From Chloroflexota bacterium (GTDB lineage Bacteria > Chloroflexota > Dehalococcoidia > RBG-13-53-26), in the NCBI GenBank assembly GCA_030616195.1, contig JAUWXW010000043.1:1-9585 (forward strand): a stretch of 9,585 bases of DNA. Reading direction: 5' to 3'. The notes under the pieces are model-generated. The model was not told the DNA's origin. It was given only the letters and a program-made list of their open reading frames with translations, and ran no database searches. A program made the position numbers and the translations under genes. Below are positions 2,351 to 9,440 of the stretch, one piece after another. The first letter of the stretch is position 1; each line of letters opens with the position of its first letter.

Positions 2351-2377
2351 GTATTACTGTGTTAGTATCGATGTCAA
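2351..2377 (-). promoter_or_regulatory. Weak candidate promoter for the degV gene
   Basis: A perfect TTGACA (minus strand, 2377-2372) overlaps the stop codon of the DUF362 gene. The best -10 at usable distance is TAATAC (2356-2351) with a short 15-base spacer; a better TATAAG (2346-2341) is too far at 25 bases. It could give degV some independent transcription, but spacing is poor in both cases. Confidence 0.25.
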
Positions 2378-3498
2378 TGCTCGGTGGGACCGTTGTCAAC
2401 AGCAGCCAGTGACAGGCTAATCAAGTGGTAGCCTAGATTCCCTAGCTCCAACCTCTGGGCTACCTTAAGCTGGACCAGACTGTCTGTTTCATTCAACTTC
2501 CCCATTCTATCAGGAGAAACGAGGGGTACTGGGTTAAGGACAACAGGAGCCTGGTCTATCAAGTCCAAGGAGGCTTTATCAATGGCTACCGGATCCAGGG
2601 CGGCCAGGATACCGATGTCCGGGACTATCGCTCTGCCGGCAGGATGAGCACAGTCACAGCAAGGTGTCACGTCTTGGATGAAGTTTATGAACCCTGCCCT
2701 CCCTCTGAATCCAACCATTGCAGCCGAAGCGGCATGGGCCAGGTATACCTGAAATCGCGATTTGTTACCCCTCTCCCAAAACAAAGCACCAGTGGGACAC
2801 GCAAAAAGACAGGTACTGCAGTGGAGGCACTTCTCCCAATCTCTGTTCGGCTTTCCGTCCTGCATAACTATAGCAGTGGTAGGACACACCTCGACGCAAG
2901 CCTCGCATCCATTGCACTTTGACTCATCCAGTATAGGCGTATTCATCCTATGCTGCTCCCTTTTGGCTTCCTTGGTTACACAGCCCATGCCCAGATTCTT
3001 TATGGCCCCACCGAAGCCAGTTATCATATGCCCCTTCACGTGAGACAAAACGAGCAAAAAGTCCGCCTGGTGGATCTTGGTGGCAACCTTAACCTCATCC
3101 AGCTCGCAGCCCTCAACAGCGCCTTGCACCGGCACGGAGACGCCCTCATACCCATCTCCGTCGGCTATGATTACAGGCGCTCCAACAGTCTCTTCGACAA
3201 AGCCGTTAAAGGCCGCTGTTGACAGATATTTGCTTTCGGTATTCCTTTCCCCTGGGTACAGCGCTGTGGTATCGGTAACGAAAGGCCTGCCGCCTGCCTG
3301 CTTGACTAGATCGACCACCCTGCGTACCAAAGCAGGCCTGATATAGGTTATGTTCCCCAACTCACCCATGTGCAGCTTGACAGCCACCGAGCCGCCTTTA
3401 GGTATGAGAGCCAGGATCGTCGATTCCATACAGAGGCTTTCTATCCCCGATAGGACGTCTTCTCCCTTCGCGTAGTCGAAAAAGAATACGTTTGACAT
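2374..3498 (-). CDS. DUF362 protein with two 4Fe-4S ferredoxin motifs, coupled to the lar operon
   Basis: A 374-aa protein of the DUF362 Fe-S family (COG2768 type). No enzymatic role is established for this family. The N-terminal half has the family signature KLHMGE (41-46) and the segment SHVKGHMITGFGGAIKNLG (152-170). A bacterial ferredoxin insert follows with two CX2CX2CX3CP motifs (C195, C198, C201, C205; C224, C227, C230, C234), predicted to bind two 4Fe-4S clusters. A CCDC motif (280-283) and DPVAIDKASLDLI (302-314) close the DUF362 fold. There is no signal peptide or membrane segment, so it is cytoplasmic. By eye, H157, K167 and H183 match in spacing the H174/K184/H200 trio of lactate racemase LarA. 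The gene starts 3 bp after the larC stop, so it is translationally coupled to NPN cofactor synthesis. I infer a redox protein that may use NPN; the family assignment is firm, the role is not. Confidence 0.88.
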   Translation of the reverse strand: MSNVFFFDYAKGEDVLSGIESLCMESTILALIPKGGSVAVKLHMGELGNITYIRPALVRRVVDLVKQAGGRPFVTDTTALYPGERNTESKYLSTAAFNGFVEETVGAPVIIADGDGYEGVSVPVQGAVEGCELDEVKVATKIHQADFLLVLSHVKGHMITGFGGAIKNLGMGCVTKEAKREQHRMNTPILDESKCNGCEACVEVCPTTAIVMQDGKPNRDWEKCLHCSTCLFACPTGALFWERGNKSRFQVYLAHAASAAMVGFRGRAGFINFIQDVTPCCDCAHPAGRAIVPDIGILAALDPVAIDKASLDLIDQAPVVLNPVPLVSPDRMGKLNETDSLVQLKVAQRLELGNLGYHLISLSLAAVDNGPTEH

Positions 3499-3501
3499 TT
3501 C

Positions 3502-4692
3502 TCAACCCCGAGTAGGAGCATCTAACTCTTTGAAATTCCTTTGAACTTCGGCGTAAACCTGACTTATGGGGACACCACAGTCCTCGGCTGCCTTCTTGCA
3601 GTCTTCATACTCTGGGACTACCTTGGCTATAGTGTCGCCTCTATAAGCTACCTTCACTCGTATCTTCCCGAAGCTGGTTTCGACAGAGTGGGAGAAACGA
3701 GCTAGAGAAAAACGTTGTCTTTCGCTAAACCTAACCCCCAGGGTGGTGCTCTCCTCAAGAATGATGTCAAGCAGTTTCCCTACTGCTTCGCTCTCGGCCA
3801 CCACAGAGAGCAAAGTTCCGGGACGATTCTTTTTCATTTGCACCGGAGTAAGAAACACATCTAAAGCCCCGGCCCGTAGAAGGCGCTCCATAATGTGGTC
3901 GTAGAGTTGCGGGTTCATATCGTCGATATTCGTTTCCAGAACCGTGACCCGTTCGGCGGCATAACCATCAGCCTGCTCCACCGACTCGCCAAGGAAAACA
4001 CGCAGGAGATTAGGCACGTGCAGATCCATCTTGCCCGCCCCATAGCCGACACCATGTATCTTCATAAGAGGCATATCACCAAAGCGGGCAGCAATGCTGG
4101 TGACTATCGCTGCCCCTGTAGGAGTAGTCAATTCACCCTCCACATCGGTAGCGCGTACCGGGACCTCTTTCACTAGCTCAGCAGTAATAGGAGCAGGAAC
4201 CGGTAGCAACCCGTGGCTGCATTTCACCAAACCCTGGCCCAAATTCAAGGGTGAGCAACTCACCTCCTCAACTCCTAACATCTTCAGTCCGACCAGGGTA
4301 CCAACAACATCGATGATGGTATCAACTGCACCTACTTCGTGGAGATGTACCGCATCGAGGTCCTTGTGGTGTACTTTGGCTTCTGCTTCCCCTAATCGGA
4401 TGAAGATACGCTTACCTTGCTGTTTAATATCGTCACTCAGGTCGCTCTGATCGATTAGACCAAGGATATCTGCGAGCCCTCTTCCTCCCTCATCGCCCTG
4501 GGCAACCACCTCTACATATATACCCGATATACCTTGTTTGGCCACCCTTCTAGCCTCGACATGATAGCCCTCCAGACGAAGTGCGCCTAGTCCCGTTCTT
4601 AGCCCATCGATATCCACTCCGAGGTCTATCAGAGCACCGAGAATCATATTCCCACTGATGCCCGAAAAGCAATCAAAATACGCCGTCCTCAT
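3502..4692 (-). CDS. larC: LarC, nickel insertion protein for the nickel-pincer nucleotide cofactor
   Basis: LarC is a CTP-dependent cyclometallase that inserts nickel into the dithio-pincer nucleotide made by LarB and LarE. This is a full-length 396-aa protein. The LarC1 part (about 1-245) starts with AYFDCFSGISGNM (4-16) and has the histidine cluster HHKDLDAVHLHEVGAVDT (108-125) and ELTTPTGAA (187-195). The LarC2 part (about 250-390) starts with LETNIDDMNPQ (252-262) and holds MKKNRPG (286-292). In L. plantarum the two parts are joined by programmed frameshifting; here one uninterrupted frame encodes both. The start overlaps the larB stop by 4 bp (ATGA), and the stop is 3 bp before the DUF362 gene, so all are one operon. 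No larA follows. Confidence 0.95.
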   Translation of the reverse strand: MRTAYFDCFSGISGNMILGALIDLGVDIDGLRTGLGALRLEGYHVEARRVAKQGISGIYVEVVAQGDEGGRGLADILGLIDQSDLSDDIKQQGKRIFIRLGEAEAKVHHKDLDAVHLHEVGAVDTIIDVVGTLVGLKMLGVEEVSCSPLNLGQGLVKCSHGLLPVPAPITAELVKEVPVRATDVEGELTTPTGAAIVTSIAARFGDMPLMKIHGVGYGAGKMDLHVPNLLRVFLGESVEQADGYAAERVTVLETNIDDMNPQLYDHIMERLLRAGALDVFLTPVQMKKNRPGTLLSVVAESEAVGKLLDIILEESTTLGVRFSERQRFSLARFSHSVETSFGKIRVKVAYRGDTIAKVVPEYEDCKKAAEDCGVPISQVYAEVQRNFKELDAPTRG

Positions 4693-5450
4693 CGCCGCTT
4701 CCTACTCCGTTGATTTATCAGACTGGCGAGATAGCCAGCCCCAAATCCATTGTCAATATTGACCACCGCTACGCCGGGAGCGCAGGTGTTGAGCATACCC
4801 AGTAGCGCCGCCAGTCCTTGAAAGCTGGCTCCGTATCCCACGCTGGTAGGAACAGCGATAACCGGCTTATCCACCATGCCTGATATGATACTGGCCAAAG
4901 CGCCTTCCATCCCCGCCACGGCAACAATCACGTTCGCCTGGAGCAATTTCTTATTGTGATCCAAAAGGCGGTGCAGGCCAGCTACCCCTACATCATAGAG
5001 CCGCTCCACTCGATTGCCCATAGCTTCGGCGGTTACCGCTGCCTCTTCTGCTACCGCTATGTCTGCTGTACCGGCAGTAGCCACCAAGACCAGCTCTTGA
5101 CTTGAAACTGGAACTCCATCTCCTATAACAATCAACCTTGGCAATGGATGATAGTGAGCCTTATCGGTAGCCTTCTGAAGCGCGGCAAATACCTCAGGAC
5201 CCGCCCTGGTAGCCAGGATAGTACCTGCTGATAGCAATAGGTGCTCTACAATCTCTACCACCTGCTCCACCGTCTTCCCCTGGCATAGAATCACTTCTGG
5301 AAAACCCTTGCGCAGAGAGCGGTGATGGTCAAGCTTGGCAAAACCCATCTCCTCATAGGGCAGCAGCTTCAGTTGTTCCAGGGCCTCCTCTACGCCCGCG
5401 TCCCCTGCCCTGACCTTCTCCAATAACTCCCGAAGCCGCTCACGATTCAT
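4689..5450 (-). CDS. larB: LarB, pyridinium-3,5-biscarboxylic acid mononucleotide synthase
   Basis: LarB carries out the first step of nickel-pincer cofactor synthesis: it carboxylates the pyridine ring of nicotinic acid adenine dinucleotide and hydrolyses the anhydride, releasing AMP. The 253-aa protein has the LarB N-terminal part with LDHHRSLRKGFPEVI (40-54) and a PurE-like C-terminal domain with TAGTADIAVAEEA (125-137), VAGMEGALASI (178-188) and PTSVGYGASFQG (201-212). C223 in MLNTCAPG matches the cysteine reported to form a covalent adduct with the dinucleotide in L. plantarum LarB (C221). Length and motifs are normal and all key segments are present. The ATG overlaps the larE stop (ATGA), and GAAGG lies 9 bases upstream inside larE. 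Cytoplasmic. Confidence 0.96.
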   Translation of the reverse strand: MNRERLRELLEKVRAGDAGVEEALEQLKLLPYEEMGFAKLDHHRSLRKGFPEVILCQGKTVEQVVEIVEHLLLSAGTILATRAGPEVFAALQKATDKAHYHPLPRLIVIGDGVPVSSQELVLVATAGTADIAVAEEAAVTAEAMGNRVERLYDVGVAGLHRLLDHNKKLLQANVIVAVAGMEGALASIISGMVDKPVIAVPTSVGYGASFQGLAALLGMLNTCAPGVAVVNIDNGFGAGYLASLINQRSRKRR

Positions 5451-6259
5451 AGGTACAATCCTTCGTTCATGCTGCCGGTACGATACCCGGCCAGGTCCAG
5501 AGTAATATAAACATAACCCAGTTCTTTAAGACGTGTCACTATACGTTGGCGGTTGGGTTCCTCAAGCAGGAGGCGCATCTGTTGTGGTTCCACCTCAATT
5601 CTTGCCATCCTGTCATAGTGACGAAGGCGCAATTGACCGATTCCCAGGCTGTGAAGAAAAGTCTCTGCTTCCTCTACTGTGGCAAGGGACTGCTTGGTGA
5701 TAGGGGTACCGTAGGGAAACCGTGAGGCTAAGCAGGCAAGGGAAGGCTTGTTCCAGGTAGGCAATCCCAGCTCCCTGGAGAGGAGCCTTATCTCATCCTT
5801 GGTTAGCCGCGCCTCCTGCAGGGGACGGCGCACCCCTAACTCGTCGGCGGCACGCATACCCGGCCGATAGTCACCCAAATCATCGTAGTTTGAACCGTCG
5901 ACTACATTCCGCATCCCCTGCTCCCTGGCAATCTGCCCCAGCTCACCGAAAAGCTCAAGCTTGCAATAATAACAGCGTTCAGGCGAATTAGCTACAAAAT
6001 TCGCGTCCTCCAGCTCTTTGGTCTCAATTACGAGATGCCTTGCCGACAAAGACCTGGCTACCTCTGTTGCCGCAGCTATCTCCTGTGAAGGGTAGGTGGG
6101 GGAGACCGCTGTTACCGCCAGCACCCTTCCCTCCAAGACATCAGAACACAGCTTGAGAAGGAGTGTACTATCTACTCCGCCCGAATAAGCAACGACGATA
6201 CTATCCATTTGTACCAACATTGCTTTCAAGCGGCGGAGCTTTTCCTGAGTAGAAATCAT
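5447..6259 (-). CDS. larE: LarE, ATP-dependent sulfur transferase of nickel-pincer cofactor synthesis
   Basis: LarE adenylates the two carboxylates of the LarB product and converts them to thiocarboxylates. It is a PP-loop ATP pyrophosphatase: SGGVDS (residues 26-31 from this start), then ERCYYCK with C96 and C99, DGSNYDDLGDYRPG, KPSLACLASRFPYG with C176, and the usual C-terminal GYRTGSMNEGL. I place the start at the ATG at 6259 because GAGGAA (6275-6270) lies 10 bases upstream and the N-terminus MISTQEKLRRL is the family norm; this also puts the cysteine at 176, the number of the sacrificial cysteine in L. plantarum LarE. Upstream starts at 6280 (ATG) and 6286 (GTG) are in frame and would add 7 or 9 residues. 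First gene of the operon, with its own promoter. Cytoplasmic, 270 aa. Confidence 0.95.
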   Translation of the reverse strand: MISTQEKLRRLKAMLVQMDSIVVAYSGGVDSTLLLKLCSDVLEGRVLAVTAVSPTYPSQEIAAATEVARSLSARHLVIETKELEDANFVANSPERCYYCKLELFGELGQIAREQGMRNVVDGSNYDDLGDYRPGMRAADELGVRRPLQEARLTKDEIRLLSRELGLPTWNKPSLACLASRFPYGTPITKQSLATVEEAETFLHSLGIGQLRLRHYDRMARIEVEPQQMRLLLEEPNRQRIVTRLKELGYVYITLDLAGYRTGSMNEGLYL

Positions 6260-6269
6260 AGTTGGCAGG

Positions 6270-6275
6270 TTCCTC
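6270..6275 (-). promoter_or_regulatory. Ribosome binding site deciding the larE start
   Basis: GAGGAA on the minus strand, 10 bases before the ATG at 6259. The alternatives at 6280 and 6286 have only a weak GGA upstream. Confidence 0.5.
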
Positions 6276-6327
6276 GTCATGAGCACGTTGTTCCAAGTGG
6301 ACTTCGAGAGACCAGTCTTCTGATGAG

Positions 6328-6719: not shown

Positions 6720-7565
6720 ATGATCTTAGACAAGTTCAAACTGACGGACAAGGTGGCCATTATCACCGGGGCAGGGACCGGGCTCGGCCGTGGAATATCC
6801 TTGGCCTTCGCTGAGGTAGGTGCGCATGTGGTCTGCGCGGCGCGCGGGGCAGAGGCGCTCGAGGCTACCGCCAAAGATGTACGTGCTCTGGGGCGAAAGT
6901 CTCTGGTCGTTCCCACAGATGTGACCAAGATCAAACAGATAGACAACCTGGTGAATAAGACGATGCAGGAATTCGGCCGAATAGACATATTTGTCAACAA
7001 TGCCGGCGGCGCCTATCTTATCAAGACGCTGGACATGAGCGAAGGGGAGTGGGACGGGTTCATCCGTCTGAATCTGACCAGCGTTATGCTGTGCAGCAAA
7101 GCAGTGGCTAAGGTGATGATGGAGCAAAAAAGCGGCAACATCATCAATATGTCTTCTCAGGCTGGCCGTCAGGGAATCGCCAAGTACGCCGCCTACTCTT
7201 GTGGCAAGGCGGCTGTTATGACCCTGACCCAATCGCTGGCCTGGGAATGGGCTCCCTACAACATTCGGGTCAACGCCATTGCCCCAGGCCCGGTACGTCA
7301 TGAAAGGACCAAGGACTTCTTCAGCATGATGCCAGAGGAGGTAAACATGGCTTCCCTGATGATTAAGCGATTCGGAGCGCCCGAGGATATAGCCGCCGCT
7401 GCTGTTTACCTCGCCTCCGATGCCTCAGACTGGGTCACCGGCCAGACCCTCAACATAGATGGCGGCCAGCGCTACAGCTATACGTATGACGACGAGGTCG
7501 TTGACATGCTGGTTACCTATGCCAGGCCGTTCTTTTGGGGGGAAGGTGGTGTCCCTGGCGCATGA
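6720..7565 (+). CDS. Short-chain dehydrogenase/reductase (SDR), classical type
   Basis: A 281-aa NAD(P)-dependent oxidoreductase with the Rossmann fold. The cofactor loop is TGAGTGLG (16-23), TDVT (66-69) contacts the adenine, and NNAG is at 93-96. The catalytic set is complete: N118, S146, Y159 and K163 (YSCGK). PG at 189-190 and the C-terminal GQTLNIDGG (241-249) are as in 3-oxoacyl-ACP reductase and hydroxysteroid dehydrogenase relatives. An arginine after the second strand (AAR, 40-42) hints at NADP use, which is inference. About 32 residues follow the IDGG motif, more than in the usual 250-aa enzyme. The start has a good AAGGAAG site. First gene of the plus-strand unit, followed 58 bp on by a VOC protein. 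The substrate (a secondary alcohol, ketone or acyl-CoA derivative) cannot be told from sequence. Confidence 0.93.
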   Translation: MILDKFKLTDKVAIITGAGTGLGRGISLAFAEVGAHVVCAARGAEALEATAKDVRALGRKSLVVPTDVTKIKQIDNLVNKTMQEFGRIDIFVNNAGGAYLIKTLDMSEGEWDGFIRLNLTSVMLCSKAVAKVMMEQKSGNIINMSSQAGRQGIAKYAAYSCGKAAVMTLTQSLAWEWAPYNIRVNAIAPGPVRHERTKDFFSMMPEEVNMASLMIKRFGAPEDIAAAAVYLASDASDWVTGQTLNIDGGQRYSYTYDDEVVDMLVTYARPFFWGEGGVPGA

Positions 7566-7623: not shown

Positions 7624-8043
7624 ATGAAAGTGGAGAGAATTGACCATATCCATGCCTATGCCAAGGATGCAAACGCCGCGGCTCAACTATTCGGCGAGCT
7701 ATTCGGATCAGAGTTCGCCCCCCCTTGGGAGTCGGATGAGTGGGGCGTTCGAGCTCGCTTTCACCCACTGGGGTTCGAATTCCTTCAGCCGACCGACCCG
7801 AACGGATTGGTAGCCCAAACACTGGCAGATCGGCAAGAGGGCATACTGTGTATTTCGTTGAAGGTGCCTAACATGGATGAGGCGATTGCCGAAATGGAGT
7901 CACGAGGCATCAAACTGATCCACCTGTTTCAGGTGGGCCAGAATAAGGAGGCATTGTTCGACTCCACCAATACCTTTGGGGTGCAGATCGAGCTCTGTGA
8001 ATATCCGGGCGACGACATTGTAAAGGCTTCTTTTGAAGAGTAG
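7624..8043 (+). CDS. VOC-superfamily (glyoxalase/bleomycin-resistance fold) protein
   Basis: A 139-aa single protein of the vicinal oxygen chelate fold with two beta-alpha-beta-beta-beta modules, the size and shape of methylmalonyl-CoA epimerase relatives. The expected metal ligands can be placed at H8 (IDHIHAYAKD), E52 (FEFLQP) and E123 (VQIELCEYP). The second-module histidine of the GxxH pattern is replaced by cysteine (GILC, C76), so metal binding may be altered. The function is not resolved: epimerase, lyase and dioxygenase-like members all share this fold. It follows the SDR gene by 58 bp with a strong GGGAGG site, and is probably in the same transcript. Cytoplasmic, with no signal peptide. 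Confidence 0.82.
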   Translation: MKVERIDHIHAYAKDANAAAQLFGELFGSEFAPPWESDEWGVRARFHPLGFEFLQPTDPNGLVAQTLADRQEGILCISLKVPNMDEAIAEMESRGIKLIHLFQVGQNKEALFDSTNTFGVQIELCEYPGDDIVKASFEE

Positions 8044-8170
8044 CGATAAATGTGTCCAACAGGAGGCTGAAAACTCCCCAATCATGGGCCAAGAATAGGG
8101 CTCTTGAAGGTCAGGACAGCCTCGACGGCCAAAGGAGGTTGACGCGTAGCGTTGAAGTATAGAAAATGAA

Positions 8171-8188
8171 TTCGCTTGACTTAGCGAA
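8171..8188 (+). promoter_or_regulatory. Inverted repeat before the substrate-binding protein gene
   Basis: A perfect 6-bp inverted repeat, TTCGCT-N6-AGCGAA, ending about 8 bases before the AAGGGGGT ribosome site of the next gene. It could be an operator or a leader hairpin that affects translation. The surrounding gap (8044-8207) has no supported gene and no convincing promoter. Confidence 0.4.
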
Positions 8189-8207
8189 AAGCTGAAAGGG
8201 GGTTAAC

Positions 8208-9440
8208 ATGAAACACTACTTTAGGATGGGTGTAGCCGCGCTCCTGGTACTAGCCTTGCTGCTTGCCACGCCTGTGCTGGGTTGCGGCGACGAAGATGAG
8301 GAAGGGGAGGAGAAAACCATCACCATAGGCATGCTCACAGACCTTACCGGTCCAGCGGGGCCTGCCCTGGTTCCCTTGCTCTGGGCCTTCCAGGACCAAA
8401 TCAAGTATATCAACGAGGAAGACCCTATCCCCGGGGTACAGTTAGAAGTCATCACTTATGATACCAAGATGGACGCTGCCAGAGGCATACCCGGCTACGA
8501 GTGGTTGAAAGAGCAGGGGTCAGAGGTCATTGTCACTATTTTCGACTACGATGCAGCAACGCTAAAGCCCTTTGCCGAAAAGGACAAGATCCCGCTGGTC
8601 TCATTGATTGTCTCCGAGCCCCTTCTGGAGCCTCCCGGATGGGTGTTTTGTATCAACTCCGCTATGCCTTTGCAGTTGGTGACTGTCCTAAAGTGGATCG
8701 GTGAGCAGGGGGATTCTAGCGAAGAAGTCCTCAAGATCGGTTGCATAGCCCCGTTCGCGGGCGCTGGCATTGAAGCAGAGGAGAAGTTGAGGGAGTACTG
8801 CCAGGATCACCCGGAGAGGTTTGACTACGTTGAGGGTTTCCTGGTCCCCTTTGCCACCATGAGCTGGCCCGGCGAGACAGAGAAGCTAGAGGACTGTGAC
8901 TGGATAGCTTTCGCCGGGGCTACCGGCATGAACATAGCTAGCTTTGTGGAGCAGTACCGGGACAAGGGATATGAGGCAAAGTTTTTCGGCCAGGAAGCCG
9001 TGGCCTCTTTCTGGGGATATGTAACGGACAAGGTAGGCTTCGAAGCCCTTGACGGGTCGGTTTTCTGGGTTGGGGCAGCATGGTGGAGTGACCCCTATCC
9101 CGTGGTCGATTTCCTTAAAGGGCTTCTACATGATTACCACCCGGCTGAAGCTGAGGATATAATGCATGAAAGCATAGGGTACATAGGTGGAGGCGTGCAA
9201 ATGTATTTCTTCCTTCAGCTTTTGCAGCAGGCGATAGAAGAGGTAGGCGCCGAAAACTTTGATGGCCAGGCTTTCTACGACACGGCGGTAAACTTCGAGA
9301 CGACTGTGGGAGGCCTTGAGGAATGGGACTTCAGCGATACCAAGCGGTATTGCCAGAACCACGGGAGGATCCACAAGGTTAACGCCGAGACAGAAGACCT
9401 GGAAATCGTCGGTGAATGGGTACCCCTGCTGACGGACTGA
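8208..9440 (+). CDS. Lipoprotein substrate-binding protein of a branched-chain amino acid type ABC transporter
   Basis: A 410-aa extracytoplasmic binding protein of the LivJ/Peripla_BP_6 type. The signal peptide has KHYFR, then a hydrophobic core (8-25) and a lipobox ending VLGC, so C26 should be lipidated. An acidic linker follows (DEDEEGEE), then the first strand ITIGMLTDLTGPAGP (38-52), which is the family hallmark. The two-lobed fold follows, with VIVTIFDYDAATLKPFAEKDKIPLVS spanning the usual hinge and first-lobe elements. Length is usual. The ATG has an AAGGGGGT site. The matching permease and ATPase genes are not in the window and would be expected downstream. Members of this family bind amino acids but also many aromatic or aliphatic acids and amides, so the ligand is open. 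Its place after SDR and VOC genes suggests uptake of the compound they process. Confidence 0.9.
   Translation: MKHYFRMGVAALLVLALLLATPVLGCGDEDEEGEEKTITIGMLTDLTGPAGPALVPLLWAFQDQIKYINEEDPIPGVQLEVITYDTKMDAARGIPGYEWLKEQGSEVIVTIFDYDAATLKPFAEKDKIPLVSLIVSEPLLEPPGWVFCINSAMPLQLVTVLKWIGEQGDSSEEVLKIGCIAPFAGAGIEAEEKLREYCQDHPERFDYVEGFLVPFATMSWPGETEKLEDCDWIAFAGATGMNIASFVEQYRDKGYEAKFFGQEAVASFWGYVTDKVGFEALDGSVFWVGAAWWSDPYPVVDFLKGLLHDYHPAEAEDIMHESIGYIGGGVQMYFFLQLLQQAIEEVGAENFDGQAFYDTAVNFETTVGGLEEWDFSDTKRYCQNHGRIHKVNAETEDLEIVGEWVPLLTD

Follow-up and report, generated by a model that had tools for sequence, protein, structure and literature searches.

Which protein uses the nickel-pincer nucleotide (NPN) when the genes for its biosynthesis stand in an operon without larA? 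The question is raised by a 9,585-nt stretch of Chloroflexota DNA (contig JAUWXW010000043.1; hereafter the window), whose minus strand carries larE, larB, larC and a DUF362 gene, in this order, with the DUF362 gene as the last of four closely packed genes. Its open reading frame (ORF; 2374..3498, minus strand), Pfam matches and predicted fold identify a 374-aa protein with an inserted 2[4Fe-4S] ferredoxin as a candidate NPN-dependent enzyme. Weighing the sequence comparisons reported here, we lean slightly toward the reading that it is a redox enzyme of the LarA clan that uses NPN in catalysis. According to PMC11796402, about 15% of surveyed genomes have larB, larE and larC without larA, NPN proteins other than LarA are expected, and a cyanobacterial NPN user, unlike LarA in both its sequence and its fold, is yet to be identified. 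The large, uncharacterized DUF362 family, with its predicted LarA N-domain fold, key residues and colocalization with larBCE, offers a concrete candidate. If this is true, NPN would extend beyond racemases and epimerases, and hydride chemistry at a nickel pincer would be coupled to iron-sulfur clusters.

The lar operon and its DUF362 gene

The NPN biosynthesis genes of this operon are larE (5447..6286, minus strand; TIGR00268, 340 bits), which specifies a sulfur transferase with CXXC-C cysteines at C105, C108 and C185; larB (4689..5450, minus strand; NF033503, 291 bits); and larC (3502..4692, minus strand; PF01969, TIGR00299 and NF052512), for nickel insertion into the NPN precursor. The larE/larB and larB/larC pairs each overlap by 4 bases, and only 3 bases (3499-3501) separate the end of larC at 3502 from the DUF362 gene, exactly as the original prediction had read it. 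Pfam and NCBIfam scans, which covered 10 window proteins, assigned LarC, LarB and LarE to the neighbors and placed the last protein in DUF362 (PF04015) over its full length (153.5 bits; cut-off 24), with two 4Fe-4S motifs. LarA was found by Pfam in 0 of these 10 proteins; the claim that no larA is present thus holds at the scale of the window, not of the whole genome.

Kinship with LarA

The prediction had started from a LarA-like spacing of H157, K167 and H183 at 0, +10 and +26, and this spacing is exact. The three codons (3028..3030, 2998..3000 and 2950..2952, all minus strand) align with those for LarA H174, K184 and H200, i.e., the catalytic histidine, the NPN attachment lysine and a nickel ligand, and the residue numbers and roles, including that of H108, agree with PMC11770544. 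In an alignment of the window protein with 240 relatives from two database searches, each of the three residues is invariant (241/241). Nineteen LarA ORFs, collected from loci of LarB-positive genomes, show identical offsets, with H in 18/19 (one gap), K in 19/19 and H in 19/19. When the two families were compared with hhalign, the three residues were paired without gaps (probability 27.5%, E 6.5e-4), and the alignment score of 37.3 was reached by 0 of 200 column-shuffled controls, the best of which scored 23.9. The H/K/H correspondence, as a sequence match, is therefore more than chance. Of the further segment positions that had been listed as shared, both families conserve G(+4) and G(+15), and F(+5) and G(+7) also agree but are less conserved (168/241 and 156/241 DUF362 proteins). 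E(+20) and R(+23), poorly conserved in both LarA (5/19 and 2/19) and DUF362 (54/241 and 69/241), carry no meaning and were dropped as support.

Two further comparisons point the same way. Lar_N (PF09861) matches residues 135-185 of the window protein over profile positions 144-194 (E 0.0017), and its 18.0 bits fall short of the gathering cut-off of 23.3, which the relatives P0046 (24.5 bits) and P0122 (24.6 bits) exceed. A structure search with the predicted model returned LarA-family matches to the N-terminal domain fold; most of these alignments end at LarA residues 266-271, equivalent to about 317-332 in the model. A lack of fold similarity to LarA, which would have refuted the prediction, was not borne out. 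The remote kinship proposed for the two families is thus supported by profile, Pfam cross-match and predicted fold, and it is already on record, since DUF362 and DUF2088/LarA are both filed in Pfam clan CL0471 and DUF362 serves as the outgroup in PMC11770544. Novelty likely lies in function, namely in the coupling of a LarA-like nickel-pincer site to electron transfer through iron-sulfur clusters. Literature searches, mostly outside subscription journals, returned no proposal that DUF362 binds or uses NPN, and queries on PF04015, COG2006, "Fe-S center protein" and Npun_F2552 gave nothing relevant beyond PMC11770544.

Kinship was originally suggested for ferredoxin-fused DUF362 proteins, a restriction that does not hold. 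Of 92 DUF362 loci that were retrieved, predominantly from genomes with lar genes, 76 contain H-x9-K, and 66 of those 76 have a further histidine at K+13 to K+16. Six weak DUF362 relatives of about 250 aa from LarB-negative Chloroflexota (L169-L174) were found to be without the motif.

The window protein shares with LarA/DUF2088 the predicted N-domain fold, the H/K/H spacing and the company of larB, larC and larE. It differs in its Lar_N score under the cut-off, the missing C-terminal domain, the lack of an H108 counterpart and the inserted ferredoxin. Fold matches to the model also include the LarA-like NPN enzymes of PDB 9q3j and 9q3k, in which one of the two catalytic histidines is missing as well. 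According to PMC12611868, those enzymes keep H108 and have Asn for H174, whereas the DUF362 protein keeps the H174 equivalent and lacks that of H108; unlike it, they have no iron-sulfur part. Within PF04015, the window protein is a full-length member of the ferredoxin-containing type, called "uncharacterized Fe-S center protein" in one source. NF052623, the NCBIfam model of the Npun_F2552 family, weakly matches both the window protein (1.2e-7, far under the equivalog cut-off of 500 bits) and a lar-adjacent DUF362 protein of locus L071 (1.6e-19); Npun_F2552, presumably a cyanobacterial protein going by its name, is therefore probably a DUF362 relative.

Co-occurrence with NPN biosynthesis genes

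Among 201 Chloroflexota genomes, LarB exceeded its cut-off in 104, DUF362 was found in 68 (E<1e-15), and 56 had the two together (odds ratio [OR] 8.3, p 3.6e-10), an association close to that of LarA itself with LarB (OR 8.9). This cut-off was chosen after the list had been viewed and excludes 14 weaker matches, 11 of them in LarB-negative genomes; counting all 82 matches at E<=1e-6 lowers the overall OR to 4.2 (p 2e-6). The association resides in the 116 genomes without LarA (E<1e-15), where LarB accompanies 17/21 DUF362-positive and 19/95 DUF362-negative genomes (OR 17, p 2.2e-7), and is not seen in LarA-positive ones (OR 1.5, p 0.59). Of 247 Bacteroidota genomes, 18 have LarC, 37 DUF362 and 16 both (OR 79, p 2.9e-13). 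Half of the LarC-positive Bacteroidota (9/18) gave no Lar_N match, and DUF362 is present in 7 of those 9. A 375-aa DUF362 type, defined after the lists had been viewed, occurs in 11 Bacteroidota genomes, all LarC positive. DUF362 is likewise carried by 13/13 LarB-positive genomes with no or weak Lar_N matches, a figure without a comparison group because only such genomes, 13 of 30 LarB-positive ones, were searched. Synechococcus elongatus has LarC and DUF362 and no Lar_N match; Haloferax volcanii, which likewise has LarC, matches PF04015 at E<=1e-3 but not at 1e-6.

Several observations weigh against NPN use by DUF362. The profile match is weak when taken alone (probability 27-33%), the C-terminal substrate domain of LarA is absent, and LarA H108 has no histidine counterpart in the generic DUF362-LarA sequence alignment, as had been anticipated. 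DUF362 is missing from 19/36 LarB-positive, LarA-negative Chloroflexota genomes, and LarC from 21/37 DUF362-positive Bacteroidota; Bacteroides ihuae, too, has DUF362 without LarC. The H and K of the triad are intact in 7/7 DUF362 proteins examined from larC-less Bacteroidota. Corynebacterium glutamicum and Methanocaldococcus jannaschii have LarC with neither Lar_N nor PF04015, one lar-linked lineage has alanine at the conserved lysine (see below), and the co-occurrence statistics treat genomes as independent, ignoring kinship, and include no negative-control family. Much of this suits an alternative that we regard as unlikely, in which DUF362 kept the LarA N-domain fold but binds another ligand, its co-occurrence with lar genes reflecting shared, often anaerobic, organisms and the linkage being incidental: the triad kept without larC, the many LarC-negative carriers, the lysine replacement and the disregard of kinship all fit. 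That alternative must, however, face an association that recurs in two phyla, also in LarA-negative genomes, and the gene clusters described in the next section. Considering the larC-less DUF362 genomes, the lysine-to-alanine lineage and the LarC- or LarB-bearing genomes without DUF362, DUF362 is no more than one NPN user among several, and some DUF362 proteins need not use NPN.

Eight Bacteroidota (G532, G536, G552, G563, G594, G625, G677 and G689) have ORFs of 424-441 aa with weak Lar_N matches (profile about 47-194). These genomes yielded no LarC, so that LarA-like proteins without an NPN pathway may exist.

Physical linkage to lar genes

Linkage was sampled in the top 80 LarB loci from GTDB genomes. 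A generic DUF362 model found a member in the flanks of 6 (L028, L037, L058, L061, L071 and L080), ferredoxin-type models did so in 0/80, and LarA was found in 1 (L030). The generic model was built from 74 seeds from L100-L238 chosen among H-x-K motif bearers, including L219, which lies on the same contig as L058. Matches in L024 (25 bits) and to the L028 polyferredoxin (27 bits) were dropped, and that to L220 13333-15069 was dropped as an AAA ATPase by Pfam.

The gene orders are diverse. DUF362-larC-larE-larB stands on a single strand in L221 and L222 (94% alike), and L220 has the same arrangement with a polyferredoxin, in two ORFs, between DUF362 and larC. In L028, L058/L219 and L071, a DUF362-polyferredoxin pair diverges from larC-larE-larB. 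All of these (L028, L058, L071 and L219-L222) keep lysine at the tethering position. Alanine replaces it in L061 (5792-7144) and L166 (9013-10365), which are 96% alike and have DUF362 followed by a short-chain dehydrogenase/reductase (SDR) oxidoreductase gene and larE-larB, with larC next in L166. Their DUF362 proteins share only about 25-28% identity with those of the loci whose DUF362 carries a twin-arginine translocation (Tat)-type signal, so the two linkages look independent; those of L220 and of L028, L058 and L071 (42-46% identity) may, from sequence, be related. Elsewhere, a frameshifted DUF362 gene lies 2 kb beyond larB-larE-larC (L167), and DUF362 adjoins a larE-like gene (L125) or a LarA gene (L121). 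For the 16 Bacteroidota with both genes, 0.07 DUF362 genes would be expected within 3 kb of larC, and four genomes of three lineages have one; the chance of three or more such linkages is P 6e-5. These repeated tight clusters, formed with DUF362 subfamilies of only about 25-27% mutual identity, speak against incidental linkage of a protein for another ligand.

DUF362 might instead be an NPN carrier or store that hands the cofactor from LarC to LarA or another enzyme, which we consider very unlikely. Its position directly after larC, the lack of a LarA substrate domain and the LarA neighbor in L121 would suit such a role, for which an inserted ferredoxin or a polyferredoxin partner has no obvious use; moreover, G024, G567, G642 and G646, all with DUF362 adjoining larBCE, gave no Lar_N match at all.

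Linkage restricted to this one genome would have spoken against the prediction. Other DUF362 subfamilies adjoin larBCE elsewhere; the exact larEBC-ferredoxin-DUF362 order is so far the window's own, as no second copy was found among the searched genomes, none of which yielded a relative of 57% identity or closer (best 43%). These searches scored the best 10 or best 6 candidates per genome. Among best candidates, the ferredoxin type was found in 9/201 Chloroflexota and in 2/298 genomes of one class (E<=1e-60, best 43% identity). The sampled relatives of 40-43% identity, unlike the window protein, have no lar genes in the stretches around them (L116, 19.9 kb; L117, 8.7 kb; L118, only 4.0 kb), and a comparison of P0001 with viral contigs gave 8 pattern matches and 0 relatives.

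Iron-sulfur wiring and a candidate mechanism

The ferredoxin domain (residues 187-243; 2770..2940, minus strand; Pfam Fer4 and structure matches) directly follows H183. The Bacteroidota DUF362 proteins of about 310 aa have, by eye, an N-terminal twin-arginine-like signal, with RR in 11 of the 13 listed and RK in L220 and L238, and are adjoined in 23/24 loci by a polyferredoxin whose 4Fe-4S domains include the Fer4_5 type. Tat signals are typically found on proteins whose folding around a cofactor precedes export. In Bacteroidota, a separate partner protein thus takes the place of the ferredoxin that the window protein has as an insertion, and this speaks for electrons passing to or from the LarA-like site. 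Tat-type DUF362 and polyferredoxin form a recurrent two-gene module (L239-L258, L028, L058, L071 and L220), mostly without adjoining lar genes.

The same wiring could serve NPN synthesis rather than NPN use. DUF362 would then be an electron-transfer or maturation protein, e.g., one that reduces [4Fe-4S] LarE, and would not catalyze with NPN. With its CXXC-C cysteines, the LarE of the window resembles the [4Fe-4S] type, whose proposed cycle requires an extra reductant (PMC9283937), and ferredoxin parts or partners occur in DUF362 proteins of both the ferredoxin-containing and the Tat-type kind. A LarA fold with an NPN-holding triad would be unexpected in a plain electron carrier, however, and 48/104 LarB-positive Chloroflexota genomes do without DUF362. 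Because of its Tat-type signal, the Bacteroidota protein would act outside the cytoplasm, apart from LarE. We therefore judge this role improbable.

For DUF362 as an NPN-dependent redox enzyme, we infer the following route of cofactor binding, covalent tethering, hydride chemistry and electron transfer. LarB, LarE and LarC, encoded directly upstream, would supply NPN, which would be tethered to K167 by the NPN-lysine chemistry known for LarA, with H183 capping the nickel and H157 acting as the single acid/base. The pincer would accept a hydride from the substrate or donate one, as in LarA. LarA puts the hydride back on the original carbon; in DUF362, the inserted 2[4Fe-4S] ferredoxin would instead move two electrons out (or in), so that a net oxidation or reduction would result. 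In Bacteroidota, the same path would run through the polyferredoxin beside Tat-type DUF362. Their place in lar clusters, the LarA fold and key residues, and the iron-sulfur wiring suggest that DUF362 proteins may be among the unidentified NPN users. More tentatively, and with confidence a little short of even, DUF362 could make up a second branch of NPN enzymes, one with redox activity, in which the LarA N-domain holds the pincer and iron-sulfur proteins, whether inserted, fused or part of a Tat-type/NapH-like partner system, carry the electrons. Such a branch would cover part of the NPN users in larBCE-positive, larA-negative genomes, possibly including cyanobacteria such as S. elongatus.

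Other features of the window

No Rfam match at gathering thresholds and no tRNA was found in the window. A DegV gene (1466-2323) comes next after the DUF362 gene. An SDR oxidoreductase gene (6720-7565, plus strand) diverges from larE; its product is only 35% identical to the SDRs whose genes separate DUF362 from larE in L061 and L166, so that the presence of SDR genes near lar genes in these loci may be coincidence. Beyond it (7624-9440, plus strand) lie genes for a glyoxalase/vicinal oxygen chelate protein and for a periplasmic binding protein, which might set the lar cluster in a context of uptake or metabolism. The close relatives of the DUF362 protein that carry an organism name, which are few, come from Chloroflexota, Dehalococcoidia and Bathyarchaeia.
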